Source: Syntrophomonadaceae bacterium
GTDB taxonomy: Bacteria > Bacillota > Dethiobacteria > DTU022 > PWGO01
Length of the DNA: 46,411 nt
Direction: 5' to 3'
Assembly (NCBI GenBank): GCA_003554525.1
Contig: PWGO01000175.1
Location: 1 to 46,411, forward strand
Each line of letters opens with the position of its first letter. Positions within the stretch are counted from its first letter, which is position 1. Below the pieces are notes generated by a model. It did not search any database. It was not told the origin of the DNA and saw only the letters and a program-made list of their open reading frames with translations. Positions 1,388-38,357 of the stretch are shown here, piece by piece. Made by a program: the position numbers and the translations under genes.

Positions 1388-2962
1388 TTATCCCTGAACA
1401 ATATTTCCTGCTCTGTTCTGGAGAAGGCTCTTTCCTGTCATTTCTCCGGGAATATCAAGACCGCATAGCTCCAGGAGTGTAGGAGCTATATCGGCAAGTT
1501 TCCCTCCCTGCTTTAATAAAAGATGGGCGTGTTCCCCTATCAGTAAAAAAGGCACTTTGTTGGTGGTATGTGCCGTGTGCGGCTCTCCTGTCTCTTTTTC
1601 TATCATTTTTTCCGCGTTCCCGTGGTCGCCCGTTATCAAAACGAAGTACCCTTCCTTAAGGGCTGTTTCCACCGTGAGGCCTACTTCCCGGTCTACCACT
1701 TCTACAGCTTTAACAGCCGCTTCCATAATACCGGAATGTCCTACCATGTCGGCATTGGCAAAGTTAACTACTACCAGGGGGTGCCTGCCCTGCTGTAGAA
1801 TTTCCCTGGCTTTTTCCCCAACTTCAGGGGCACTCATTTCTGGCTGCAAGTCGTAAGTAGCTACCCGGGGCGAGGGAATAAGGCAGCGTTCTTCTTTGGT
1901 AAAAGGTTCTTCCCTGCCACCATTCAAGAAAAAAGTAACGTGTGCATACTTTTCTGTTTCTGCCAGCCTCAACTGGGAATATCCCTTTTTTGCTGTCCAC
2001 TCCCCCAGGGTATTTTTTAAGTATTGAGGGGGAAAGGCTACCGGAACCGGGAATTCCACGTCGTATTCCGTAAAACTTACCATGTGCGGAAAAGCAGGTT
2101 TTTCCCCGCGGTTAAACTCTTCAAAGCTTTCTTCAAAGAAAGCCCGGGTTATCTGCCTCATTCTATCGGGACGGAAATTAAACATTACCAGGGAATCTTC
2201 GGAAGAAACCCTGATTATTTCATTTTCTTCTTCTCCTCCTTCAATTACCGTGGGAACAACGAATTCGTCGTTTTCCCCCCGTTCATAAGCCTGAAATACA
2301 GCAGAGATGGGATCCGGTGCTTTTAACCCTTCCCTGTAAACAAAAGCCTGGTACGCCAGGGAAGTGCGCTCCCACCGCTTATCCCGGTCCATGGCATAAT
2401 ATCTTCCGGAGACGGTGGCAATACTACCTGTTTTATTTTTTTCACAGTAGTCCATTAAATCCCGTATGTACTCTTCCGCACTGGTCGGGGGCACATCCCT
2501 GCCGTCCAGTATAGCATGAATATACACCCGGGGCAGGCCCTGTTCTTTAGCCCAGCAAAGAAGGGCTTTCAAATGGTTTAAATGGCTGTGTACACCCCCG
2601 TCCGATACCAGGCCCATTAGATGAAGCGAGGAATTGTTCCGGGCGGCATTCTTTATGGCTCCTTCCAGCACTTCGTTTTTATAAAATTCACCGGTCTCTA
2701 TAGATTTATCTATACGAGATATTTCCTGGTATACTATTTTCCCCGCTCCAATATTTAAATGGCCTACTTCGGAGTTGCCCATCTGGCCCGTGGGCAAACC
2801 TACGGATTCTCCTGAAGCCTCCAGCAGCGTGTCGGGGTAATGCTCCCGGTAATAGTCCATGGCCGGGGTAGCAGCCCGGGCTACGGCGTTACCTTCCGAA
2901 TCCGCTTGACAGCCCCATCCGTCCAGTATGATCAGCATAACAGGCTGCATCTGTTCACTCAA
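1388..2962 (-). CDS. gpmI: 2,3-bisphosphoglycerate-independent phosphoglycerate mutase
   Basis: Interconverts 3- and 2-phosphoglycerate without a bisphosphoglycerate cofactor, using two Mn ions and a phosphoserine intermediate. The 524-residue protein starts with the alkaline-phosphatase-superfamily metal motif ILDGWG (D14) and has the nucleophile Ser64 in MGNSEVGHLN. Further metal ligands are in NFANADMVGHSG and GDHGNAEKM near the C-terminus. The called start is TTG at 2962-2960, just after the tpiA stop, with a GGAGGCGGG-like site before it; the ATG four codons later is an alternative. The 1-nt gap to tpiA implies translational coupling. Confidence 0.96.
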   Translation of the reverse strand: MSEQMQPVMLIILDGWGCQADSEGNAVARAATPAMDYYREHYPDTLLEASGESVGLPTGQMGNSEVGHLNIGAGKIVYQEISRIDKSIETGEFYKNEVLEGAIKNAARNNSSLHLMGLVSDGGVHSHLNHLKALLCWAKEQGLPRVYIHAILDGRDVPPTSAEEYIRDLMDYCEKNKTGSIATVSGRYYAMDRDKRWERTSLAYQAFVYREGLKAPDPISAVFQAYERGENDEFVVPTVIEGGEEENEIIRVSSEDSLVMFNFRPDRMRQITRAFFEESFEEFNRGEKPAFPHMVSFTEYDVEFPVPVAFPPQYLKNTLGEWTAKKGYSQLRLAETEKYAHVTFFLNGGREEPFTKEERCLIPSPRVATYDLQPEMSAPEVGEKAREILQQGRHPLVVVNFANADMVGHSGIMEAAVKAVEVVDREVGLTVETALKEGYFVLITGDHGNAEKMIEKETGEPHTAHTTNKVPFLLIGEHAHLLLKQGGKLADIAPTLLELCGLDIPGEMTGKSLLQNRAGNIVQG

Positions 2963-2963
2963 T

Positions 2964-3719
2964 TTAACCCGCCTCCTGTGCCGCTTTAATCAGGCCTATA
3001 AAAGAATCCGGCTTGAGACTTGCGCCTCCAACCAGCGCTCCCTGAATTTGAGGCAGCGTGGTAAAACCGGCAATATTTCCTTCTTTTACGCTGCCGCCAT
3101 AAAGGATATTTGTTTTATCTCCCAGGTCGCTGTCAAATTCATCCAGGGTGCGACGTATAGTTTCTGCAGCCTCGCGGGCATCCTCGGGGTAAGCGGCCCT
3201 GCCGGTTCCTATCGCCCATACCGGCTCGTAAGCTATCACCATCTTCTGCAAAACATTCAAGTCTACCTCTTGAAGCCCCTGCCTGACCTGCCTTTTTAGC
3301 ACTTCGCCCGTTCTGCCTTCGTCCCTTTCCTGTTCCGTCTCCCCTACGCAAAAGATGGGTGCCAGGTTGTAGTCCGCCAGGACTTTCATCTTGCGATTAA
3401 TCACCTGGTCCGTTTCTCCCATCACATGCCGCCTTTCCGAGTGTCCCAGGACCACATAACGCACCCCGGCATCTTCCAGCATTATAGGGGAAACTTCCCC
3501 GGTAAAAGCTCCTTCTTTTTCCCAGTGCATGTTTTGTGCTCCCAGGCGGAAATTGCCTTCCGCCTGCTTTTCCCCCGCTTCGTAGAGGAAAGTAAACGGG
3601 GGGCAGATCACTGCCTGTATTCCTTCCCGGATTTCACCACTCCGCGATACAAACTCCTTCAGAAACTCCAGCGTTTCTTCCCGAGTTTTATGCATCTTCC
3701 AGTTTGCAGCAATAATCAT
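2964..3719 (-). CDS. tpiA: Triosephosphate isomerase
   Basis: Interconverts dihydroxyacetone phosphate and glyceraldehyde 3-phosphate. It is 251 residues, a standard TIM length. The catalytic residues are visible: N6 and K8 in AANWKMH, H93 in GHSERR, E165 in AYEPVWAIGTG, followed by the phosphate-gripping loop and the GGSV and GGASL phosphate loops. The ATG has GGAGGAGG about 13 nt upstream, a rather long spacing. A short tandem repeat lies 50 nt upstream, in the gap after pgk. It is tightly followed by gpmI. Confidence 0.97.
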   Translation of the reverse strand: MIIAANWKMHKTREETLEFLKEFVSRSGEIREGIQAVICPPFTFLYEAGEKQAEGNFRLGAQNMHWEKEGAFTGEVSPIMLEDAGVRYVVLGHSERRHVMGETDQVINRKMKVLADYNLAPIFCVGETEQERDEGRTGEVLKRQVRQGLQEVDLNVLQKMVIAYEPVWAIGTGRAAYPEDAREAAETIRRTLDEFDSDLGDKTNILYGGSVKEGNIAGFTTLPQIQGALVGGASLKPDSFIGLIKAAQEAG

Positions 3720-10471: not shown

Positions 10472-10511
10472 AAGCCGCTTCAGTGGGAAGGGGGGAAATG
10501 TGTCTAATTTT

Positions 10512-10587
10512 ACAGGGACAAGGGGACAGGTCCATCGTCCCAGTTCAGGGACAACAGGGACAAGGGGACAGGTCCATCGTCCCAGTT
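10512..10587. repeat. Two 34-bp copies of a GGGACA-type palindromic repeat
   Basis: An identical 34-bp sequence occurs at 10512-10545 and 10554-10587, separated by 8 bp that repeat part of the unit. Each copy can fold through GGGAC...GTCCC with an inner GGACAGGTCC palindrome. A related motif (GACACGGGGACGGTTC on the minus strand) occurs at the uvrC stop. The type resembles REP-like repeats seen in several Clostridia. Confidence 0.8.
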
Positions 10588-10656
10588 TAAAACCCCTCGA
10601 TAGATAAATGACAGTTGGAATTAGATTACTAAAATAACAAAAGTATTTTTCAAAAA

Positions 10657-10762
10657 ATAACTACTAAGGCTCTATGTGGATAATAGTAACTTGAGATCAG
10701 CTCCAACTCACCATGTGGAGGGCTTTTTATCTTGTCTCTTGCTTCTTGTTTCTGGCTTCTTG
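10657..10762 (+). repeat. Dispersed ~105-bp repeat, copy A
   Basis: Begins near TAACTACTAAGGCTCTATG and continues through a GTAACTTG block, a CTCACCATGTGGAG hairpin followed by GGCTTTTTATCTTG, and a tail of TCTTGTCTCTTGCTTCTTG type. The same order of blocks with scattered differences is found on the minus strand at 36783-36897 (copy B). The hairpin plus T-run looks like a rho-independent terminator. No coding frame is conserved between the two copies. Confidence 0.75.
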
Positions 10763-10799
10763 AATGGGGGCTTTTTTTCTCATCTTTTACTTCTGACTT

Positions 10800-11002
10800 C
10801 CGACCTTTAATACTGTCAGCTACCCCAAACAGACTTTTCGAAGCTTACATCCTTCAGCTATTTCTTCCGGCCTGCTACCTCCTTTGCCTACGCTTAACCG
10901 CATCTGTTACCAGAATGCACCCAAGGCTAAGTACTGGTGGTTGGCTAGTCCTTGCCAGACGGGTTTCTCAACCGCTCAACACGTTGCGCTTTCACGGCGC
11001 AC
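10800..11002 (-). mobile_element. Possible group II intron 5' fragment (domain I)
   Basis: Read on the minus strand from 11002, the sequence starts with GTGCGCC, agreeing with the GUGYG 5' end of group II introns. It continues with GTGTTGAGCGGTTGAGAAAC and CTGGCAAGGACTAGCC, and has a stem capped by a GNRA-type GTAA loop (GCATTCTG-GTAA-CAGATGC). This style is typical of domain I of bacterial group II introns. No reverse-transcriptase gene or domain V is present, so at most it is a truncated copy. The left limit is uncertain. Confidence 0.4.
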
Positions 11003-18010: not shown

Positions 18011-18117
18011 ATCTCTCAATCTCTAATCTCTAATCTCTAATCTCTAATCTCTAATCTCTAATCTCTAATCTCTAATCTCTAATCTCTAATCTCTAATCTC
18101 TAATCTCTAATCTCTAA
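18011..18117. repeat. 14-copy heptamer array (AATCTCT) upstream of uvrB
   Basis: AATCTCT (AGAGATT on the uvrB strand) is repeated 14 times perfectly at 18018-18115, with one degenerate unit before and two bases after. It ends about 25 bp from the uvrB TATAAT hexamer, where a -35 and upstream activating element would lie. The neighbouring 18120-18240 is low-complexity and contains CACTTCTAACCTCTCAAAAA, almost identical to 25157-25177. Confidence 0.95.
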
Positions 18118-18284
18118 GAGTATTATAATATTATACCATACAAAAAAAAAGTGAAACCATACCTCGGCTCCCACTTCTATATCTGGCCTCTGGACTTCTA
18201 ACCTCTAATTTTCCACTTCTAACCTCTCAAAAAGATGTAGTTCACGCTGGGGGGAAGACAATGCCTGCAGCCTGGAACCAGGAA

Positions 18285-36695: not shown

Positions 36696-36725
36696 GCCGT
36701 TCCACCTTTCATAATAAACCCTCTT

Positions 36726-36765
36726 ATAAAGCAATTACTATACGTAAAGATAAAGCAATTACTAT
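36726..36765. repeat. 16-bp direct repeat upstream of comF
   Basis: ATAAAGCAATTACTAT occurs at 36726-36741 and 36750-36765, period 24 bp, starting 31 bp upstream of the comF start. Such spacing (about two helical turns) could suit a dimeric regulator. No clear promoter hexamer pair was found. Confidence 0.8.
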
Positions 36766-36782
36766 TATGGGAGGATACCATA

Positions 36783-36897
36783 CAAGAAGCCAGAAACAAG
36801 AAGCCAGAGACAAGAGACAAGATAAAAAATCCCCACATGGGGAGTAGGAACTGAAGCATCCAAGTTACCATTGCCCACATAGAACCTGAGTAGTTAC
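36783..36897 (-). repeat. Dispersed ~105-bp repeat, copy B
   Basis: Read on the minus strand it has the same blocks as copy A (10657-10762): TAACTACTCAGGTTCTATGT, a GGTAACTTG block, CCCCATGTGGGG followed by ATTTTTTATCTTG, then TCTTGTCTCTGGCTTCTTG. It lies between the metK terminator and comF, in comF orientation. The hairpin base pairs are stronger than in copy A while the T-run is kept. Confidence 0.8.
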
Positions 36898-36903
36898 TAC
36901 AAA

Positions 36904-36943
36904 ATAAAAATATAACGGTGCCCCCGGCTAAGCGGGGACACCA
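36904..36943 (-). terminator. metK terminator
   Basis: Minus strand GTGTCCCCGC, loop TTA, GCCGGGGGCAC, followed by CGTTATATTTTTATTTTG. It lies 26 nt after the metK stop. Confidence 0.85.
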
Positions 36944-36968
36944 GCTGTTAACCAAATTGAATTATAAA

Positions 36969-38165
36969 CTACAGGCCAGCTTTATCTTTAAGCTCGTCTT
37001 TTTTGTCCAGCCTTTCCCAGGGCAGATCCAGGTCGGGCCGTCCAAAATGCCCGTAGGCAGCCACTTGCTGATATATGGGCCTTCTTAAATCCAGCTTGTC
37101 TATCAAGGCAGCGGGCCGCAGATCGAATACCTCTCGGATCAAGTCTTCTATGTGTCGATCAGATATTTTGCCGGTGCCGAACGTTTCTACAAACAACGAT
37201 ACCGGGCGTGCCACGCCAATAGCATAGGCTACCTGCACTTCACATTTTTCCGCCAGCCCGGCTGCCACCACGTTTTTCGCTACGTGGCGTGCCGCATACG
37301 CTCCAGAACGGTCAACTTTAGTAGGATCTTTGCCGGAAAAAGCACCACCACCGTGGCGTCCGTAAGCACCGTAAGTGTCAACCATTATTTTTCTCCCCGT
37401 CAGGCCCGCGTCTCCCAGGGGACCGCCTACCACAAACCGTCCCGTAGGATTAACCAAAAGACTGGTATCTTCCGTAAGCAATTCTTTGGGAACTATTTCT
37501 TTTACTACCGTATCGTGCAAGTCATTTCGTATTTCCTCCAGGGTTACATCTTCACGGTGTTGGGCGGAAACCACTACCGTATTTAAACGCGCTGGCTTTC
37601 CTTCTTCGTATTCCACGGTTACCTGTGTTTTCCCATCGGGGCGCAGGTACGGCAGCATGTTCTCTTTGCGTACGTGAGACAGGCGCAAGGCCAGTCGCTG
37701 GGCCAGGGATATGGGCAAGGGCATAAGCTCGGGGGTTTCGTTGCAGGCAAATCCTACCATCATGCCCTGATCACCGGCACCTGTTTGATTGTACTCATCT
37801 TCTTTTTGTTCCACTGTTTTAGTTTCGTACGCTTCGTCTACTCCCATGGCTATATCGGGAGACTGCTCGTCAATAGAGCTAATAACCGCACAGGTATCCC
37901 CGTCAAAACCAAACTTGGCCCGGGTATATCCTATTTGTTTGACCTTATCCCGCACTATGCGGGGAAAGTCTACATAGCATTCCGTAGTAATTTCTCCACA
38001 GATAAGGACCAGGCCGGTAGTTACTGCGGTCTCCGCGGCTACCCTCCCCATGGGATCTTTTTCCAGGATAGCATCCAGGATTGCGTCCGAGATCTGATCG
38101 GCCAGCTTGTCGGGGTGTCCCTCCGTAACCGATTCTGAAGTAAACATAAAAGTACCTTTACTCAT
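36969..38165 (-). CDS. metK: S-adenosylmethionine synthetase
   Basis: Makes S-adenosylmethionine from methionine and ATP. The 398-residue protein has [18 protein letters not shown] at about 14-31, the ATP motif GAGDQGMM at about 119-126, and the P-loop-like signature [19 protein letters not shown]. The ATG has AAGGAGG 9 nt upstream and follows a SAM-I riboswitch, so it is expected to be repressed by its own product. Confidence 0.98.
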
Positions 38166-38206: not shown

Positions 38207-38357
38207 AAAAAAACCTCTTTGGGAAAAGAGGCTAGTAAAACTACCTTATCTCCCAGGATAGCTTCGCTTCCTGCGGGAATTAGCACCACTGGCCAACTTG
38301 AGCTGGCCTGGTTGCCGGGATTCATAGGGCCCGTCCCTCCTCCACTCTGGATAAGAA
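38207..38357 (-). ncRNA. SAM-I riboswitch (S-box) controlling metK
   Basis: Minus strand order of conserved S-box blocks: TTCTTATCCAGAG, GGAGGGACGGGCCCTATGAA, CCCGGCAACC, GGTGCTAATTCC, GCAGG and CTGGGAGATAAGG. The expression platform ends in the terminator CCTCTTT-TCCC-AAAGAGG followed by seven T (38231-38207). High SAM should end transcription before metK. Confidence 0.96.

Follow-up and report, generated by a model that had tools for sequence, protein, structure and literature searches.

The locus and its two repeat copies

The window, by which we mean the whole analysed stretch of 46,411 nucleotides, carries two copies of a dispersed repeat. The gene uvrC, on the opposite strand, has its 3' end towards copy A, and copy B lies downstream of metK (S-adenosylmethionine synthetase, 36969-38165, assigned with Pfam). 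When the own genome was searched with copy A, copy B was recovered in an alignment that covers query positions 2-106 of 106 at 80% identity (E = 1.9e-22). The positions and strands given in the first-pass annotation for the two copies, and the block order it described as common to them, agree with our analysis. The features are as follows.

10657-10762, + strand: copy A, whole repeat
10657-10701, + strand: left end (H end) of copy A, conserved, opening with the terminal inverted repeat ATAACTACTAAGG; 90.7% to the consensus
10701-10728, + strand: hairpin of copy A, CTCCA/TGGAG (weak), then GGC and a T-run at 10724-10728; -4.4 kcal/mol, from the sequence
10729-10762, + strand: tail of copy A, pyrimidine-rich with a 7-bp period; lag-7 identity 0.53 over 10729-10780
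36783-36897, - strand: copy B, whole repeat
36853-36897, - strand: left end (H end) of copy B, conserved, opening with GTAACTACTCAGG; from comparison with the consensus
36824-36852, - strand: terminator-like hairpin and T-run of copy B; overlapping stems at 36852-36828 and 36843-36830
36783-36823, - strand: tail of copy B, pyrimidine-rich with a 7-bp period; lag-7 identity 0.60 over 36770-36823
36916-36943, - strand: terminator-like hairpin of 11 pairs just after metK, upstream of copy B and outside the repeat

A sequence profile of the left end (R1), built from 14 sequences that include copies A and B themselves, matches copy A at 10658-10700 (E = 1.5e-13) and copy B at 36859-36897 (E = 1.9e-11). 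A hairpin with a T-run had been reported for both copies. This holds for copy B, where the two overlapping stems have energies of -9.1 and -7.7 kcal/mol and the latter, TCCCC-ATGT-GGGGA, is followed immediately by TTTTTT; in copy A, however, the stem is weak and GGC stands before the T-run. The terminator scanner skips this stem and calls another one in the tail, at 10754-10772.

Only the left end is left in copies A and B. A profile search found no match to the right end (R2) anywhere on the window's contig, there is no target duplication at either copy, and both elements are truncated in the tail, with the right end missing. A complete copy elsewhere in the family (L094, 164 bp) is 83% identical to copy A over 105 bp including the tail; it has the same layout of hairpin, T-run and tail, followed by a right end, and is flanked by a 7/8 duplication. 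Since the match includes the tail, copy A corresponds to the layout of L094 minus the right end; copy B shares this layout and likewise ends within the tail. With neither a right end nor a duplication in A and B, their membership of the family rests on the left end and the likeness to L094.

The left flank of copy A (10514-10665) recurs at two other places in the genome, with 91% identity in C40 and 92% in C84, where it is partial. In C84 a left-end copy comes after the recurring flank, while in C40 about 10 bases of the left end remain, fused to a group II intron-like piece. These recurrences make it probable that duplication and rearrangement have affected the copy A region after the insertion.

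Several other features were observed nearby. A match to RF02005 (group II intron D1-D4-6) at 10813-10968 on the - strand lies just downstream of uvrC and adjoins copy A, and a piece similar to it adjoins the left-end remnant in C40 (L124). At 10512-10587 of the window a 34-bp unit, ACAGGGACAAGGGGACAGGTCCATCGTCCCAGTT, is repeated twice, and 15 of the 18 own-genome matches to 10500-10665 cover only the surroundings of this unit. A SAM riboswitch is found upstream of metK, at 38243-38357 on the - strand.

The repeat family within the genome

The own genome comprises 2.3 Mb in 190 contigs and its assembly is 96.6% complete. Copy A as query gave 43 matches in it at E <= 1, A itself counted, but 25 of these span only query positions 55-106, that is, the hairpin end, the T-run and the 7-bp-period tail. 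A search with copy B also gave matches at E <= 0.001 in 5 of 59 relatives, all of them from query position 71 onward, in the tail region. The informative portion of the repeat is the left 45 bp. We searched further with R1 and with a right-end profile, R2, built from 17 sequences. At a cut-off of E <= 0.01 the own genome has 32 matches to R1 and 45 to R2. The dispersed repeat proposed in the first-pass annotation thus has a high copy number and does not consist of two copies only.

Among the genomes searched, the family is restricted to its own. No match to R1 or R2 was found among 69 related genomes, two of them of the same family, in a profile search that applies stricter filters above 40 genomes and can lose weak matches. 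A search of the plasmid collection with copy A in distant mode gave no match, nor did the exact IUPAC pattern of the right end in the genome contigs collection or the viral contigs collection. Two matches to the right-end pattern in two other genomes of the order (L121 and L122, 2 mismatches each) were dropped as chance; they fall within open frames of 117 and 324 aa and have neither the left-end inner block nor the extended right end.

Complete copies have a second end without counterpart in A or B, TAACTACTCACGGTGTGAAAGCTTAGA, which is inverted relative to the left end. Its first 18 bases, with up to 3 mismatches allowed, have 40 matches in the own genome, and the reversed-pattern control has 0. 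In paired copies the inverted ends comprise about 11 bp, GTAACTACTCA...TGAGTAGTTAC; they are seen in this form in L092 and L093, and with small changes in L094. A complete copy consists of the left end GTAACTACTCAGGCTCTATGTGGATAATGGTAACTTGACACCAGG, often a hairpin with T residues, an optional inner part, which is either a pyrimidine tract with a 7-bp period or nested repeats of another kind, and the right end TTCTCTAAGCTTTCACACCGTGAGTAGTTAC. The 14 copies that pass one level of the duplication test described below measure 61-346 bp, except for a doubtful pairing of 816 bp (L111), and at such short lengths there is no transposase gene inside.

Two right-ended copies of the own genome (L091 and L101) enclose another repeat of the type CCGGTGTCAAGTGTGTAACTGGGTTAGCC, which suggests nested or related repeat families. 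A near-perfect AATCTCT array at 18018-18122 of the window has the 7-bp period that the tails also have, and this genome may be generally rich in pyrimidine tracts built of heptamers.

Insertion scars

The 8 bp flanking each of 35 right ends were compared with the 8 bp flanking the best opposite end no more than 1 kb away, and the null distribution was obtained from 300 trials in which the flanks were shuffled among the copies. In 6 of the 35 right-ended copies (L093, L101, L096, L109, L107 and L110) the duplication is perfect (8/8) and the opposite end recognisable; the null averages 0.13 such copies and never exceeds 1. L096 and L110 have 3 mismatches in the opposite end. The second level calls for a duplication of 6/8 or better and no more than 2 mismatches in the opposite end, and 12/35 copies reach it (null mean 0.75, maximum 4). 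The test was passed at one level or the other by 14 copies, the 816-bp pairing of L111 among them being doubtful. The remaining 21 reach neither level, likely owing to worn or missing partner ends. The excess of 8-bp duplications is direct evidence of transposition.

Hairpin and gene context

The hairpin raises the alternative that the element is a mobile transcription terminator under selection, that is, a MITE that owes part of its spread to a left-to-right strand which stops transcription downstream of genes. We scanned 20 left-ended copies for stems with an energy of -6 kcal/mol or lower that run directly into a T-rich stretch, in a forward region of 62 bases and a reverse region of 100 bases per copy, and compared them with 60 sets of dinucleotide shuffles. 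Such a hairpin occurs on the left-to-right strand in 9/20 copies, against a mean of 1.8 and a maximum of 5 in the shuffled sets, and on the opposite strand in 2/20 (Fisher p 0.03); copy A is not one of the nine. A looser first scan, which gave 14/20 forward and 2/20 reverse, is superseded by this stricter one. The hairpin is therefore a real, mostly one-strand feature above chance, and its function is unproven.

Selection on pairing was tested by an arm swap, in which the 5' and 3' arms were exchanged between copies and the pairing energies compared. The true pairs have the better mean energy, but not significantly so in any of four selections (p 0.18 with 20 copies, 0.07 with 12, 0.11 with 10 and 0.10 with 11). 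Folds of the whole element are no better than those of dinucleotide shuffles (z 0.73 for A and -0.41 for B).

The gene context was counted for 43 copies, with L062 at 341, L100 at 2475 and the weaker later profile matches omitted; genes were called with a simple greedy ORF picker, and one-ended copies were given an assumed length of 120 or 105 bp. None of the 43 copies lies inside a called ORF. Genes were called on both sides of 35 copies, and these comprise 11 convergent, 22 tandem and 2 divergent pairs. Divergent sites are thus scarce (p 0.02 against convergent ones), which speaks for a mobile terminator and also fits a tolerance of insertions away from promoters. In the tandem pairs, however, the hairpin strand runs with the genes in 10 cases and against them in 12, an even split that counts against selection for termination. 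The flanking genes do not help the terminator alternative either: the left-flanking gene reads into the left end in 22/37 cases (p 0.32), and 27/41 right-flanking genes (p 0.06) read into the right end, a direction that runs counter to the hairpin strand. As for the two copies in the window, copy B sits behind the terminator-like hairpin that metK has of its own, and the gene that copy A faces is on the opposite strand.

It is suggestive only that stop codons lie nearer to right ends than to left ends: an open frame stops within 20 bp of 12/35 right ends and 2/20 left ends (p 0.06). In three of the 35 right-ended copies (L116, L109 and L098), the neighbouring open frame takes its stop codon, TAA, from the right inverted repeat.

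Given the non-significant arm covariation and the lack of orientation bias in tandem pairs, we find no support for selection on the repeat, be it as a terminator or as a small RNA, nor for the suggestion of the first-pass annotation that RNA structure is under selection. The mobile terminator that it also proposed stands as far as the anatomy goes, with a mostly one-strand hairpin and T-run above chance, but not as regards selection for termination; we consider this alternative unlikely. A more elaborate form, in which an IS66-type MITE carries its own one-way terminator, re-creates the hairpin by changes that keep the pairing, and spreads as a transcription insulator near gene ends, is quite improbable.

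Ends in common with ISBst12-type IS66 elements

No match to the IS66 transposase (PF03050) was found at E <= 1 in the own genome (96.6% complete, 190 contigs), and two other genomes of the same family have none at E <= 1e-10, a level reached in 30 of the 149 genomes searched, the own genome counted. The best IS match is a 2444-bp element (L157) in an order-level relative (G033), which has GTAACTACTCAGCCTACCAGT at both ends and encodes a 535-aa protein identified as DDE_Tnp_IS66 with Pfam; GTAACTACTCAGCC too is found at both ends of this ISBst12-type IS66 element. No target duplication was found at L157. A second ORF there (2822-3691, - strand) matches DruA (PF14236) and overlaps the transposase ORF as called.

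Relatives of the L157 transposase were found at 35 loci, the nearest being L171, with a 100% identical protein, in a record labelled Syntrophomonadaceae bacterium isolate CSSed11_109. Paired ends were inspected at 18 of these 35 loci and at 17 of the 30 PF03050 loci. Ends of the type GTAACT(A/G)(C/T)TCAG occur in 9 of the 18 (L171, L175, L176, L179, L180, L181, L182, L183 and L184); the other nine, several of which are on short contigs, have no GTAA end pair matching at 13 of 18. Labels of the records with GTAACT-type TCAG ends include Chloroflexi, Saprospiraceae, Chitinophagales, Brocadia and Emcibacter. Among the 17 PF03050 loci, seven (L141, L143, L145, L146, L148, L149 and L152) have GTAAGC-type ends, which belong to another kind of IS66 element; L158 has a weak pair, L161 has GTAACTGC ends, and eight have none. 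The loci with GTAAGC ends were rejected as the parent type of the MITE. Perfect 8-bp duplications were found at L184 (AAACTATT on either side), L145, L146 and L148, but the pairing of ends at IS66 loci preferred pairs with a duplication, and so these are not independent evidence.

Because no partner gene was found, the driver is deduced from the MITE ends, and the family is filed by its ends and scars only. The absent partner transposase, which may have been lost or left unassembled, lowers the certainty of the driver and not of the MITE status. Duplications of 8 bp are made by several IS families, and this, together with the lack of an IS66 transposase in the own assembly, would allow a MITE driven by a transposase of a non-IS66 family. 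The MITE ends, however, match the ISBst12 group specifically, with GTAACT-type TCAG ends in the order-level relative and others and with GTAACTGCTCAG in ISDge4 (PMC12898284). A driver from outside IS66 is therefore very unlikely.

The weakest alternative is a family of small RNA genes. In its favour, the conserved block of 45 bp with the hairpin and T-run behind it resembles a small RNA with its own terminator; we regard this alternative as barely credible, since neither A nor B matches an Rfam family at the gathering score, their folds are no better than shuffles, the conserved blocks are transposon ends, promoter-like matches upstream of A are within chance (1 found, 0.6 expected), no promoter-like match was found in 36700-36980 around B, and nothing in our analysis indicates a small RNA gene.

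Interpretation

We conclude, with a probability of about 0.9, that A and B both belong to a non-autonomous MITE family of the ISBst12 type of the IS66 family and are truncated on the right. The MITE-like element suggested in the first-pass annotation is strongly supported by the inverted ends, the 8-bp duplications and the ends common to ISBst12-type IS66 elements. An ISBst12-type transposase, absent from the genome or merely from its assembly, would have recognised GTAACTACTCA and inserted the element, generating the 8-bp duplication. The hairpin would be element anatomy passed on by descent, and the siting near gene 3' ends would reflect what selection tolerated. The family gives the impression of being old and by now mostly quiet, as many of its copies have diverged or are truncated or nested.

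By tying it to the ISBst12 group, the analysis accounts for a dispersed repeat that had no name, and it adds a MITE family of IS66 type that is well supported and whose insertion scars are clear. Should the hairpins turn out to stop transcription, the copies would form a natural series of terminator insertions.

Comparison with known repeats

We found no paper that combines IS66, MITE, non-autonomous and Firmicutes, searched as whole words, and we make no wider claim on what is in print. In the main text of a review of prokaryotic MITEs, IS66 has 0 occurrences, and a terminator function is called conceivable (PMC10969869).

The closest autonomous elements are those of the ISBst12 group. In PMC12898284, the ends of ISDge4 are given as GTGACTACTCAGCA and GTAACTGCTCAGCA, together with a direct repeat of 8 bp, and active transposition in this group is, according to that paper, reported for the first time. 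The group (ISDge4 and L157) shares with our family GTAACTACTCAG-type ends and the 8-bp target duplication (PMC12898284). In contrast, the MITE encodes no transposase, and its paired copies are only 61-346 bp long (one doubtful at 816 bp). The first 11-13 bp of the ends are in common, whereas no match to the IS ends was seen beyond them.

BrickBuilt of Porphyromonas gingivalis, a MITE with an internal minisatellite according to PMC4596501, is likewise intergenic and encloses a short tandem-repeat tract. It differs in its 23-nt units and its ends; in our family the tract is optional and its period is 7 bp.

Of the terminator-like repeats seen, SPRITE of Streptococcus pneumoniae (PMC3049150) comes nearest. 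Both are short interspersed repeats with a terminator-like hairpin near gene 3' ends. SPRITE, as described in that paper, has an 18-bp stem and ends of AAAA/TTTT, and no target duplication is established for it, whereas the ends of our MITE are GTAACTACTCA, of the IS66 type, its insertions are marked by 8-bp duplications, and its stems are shorter and variable.
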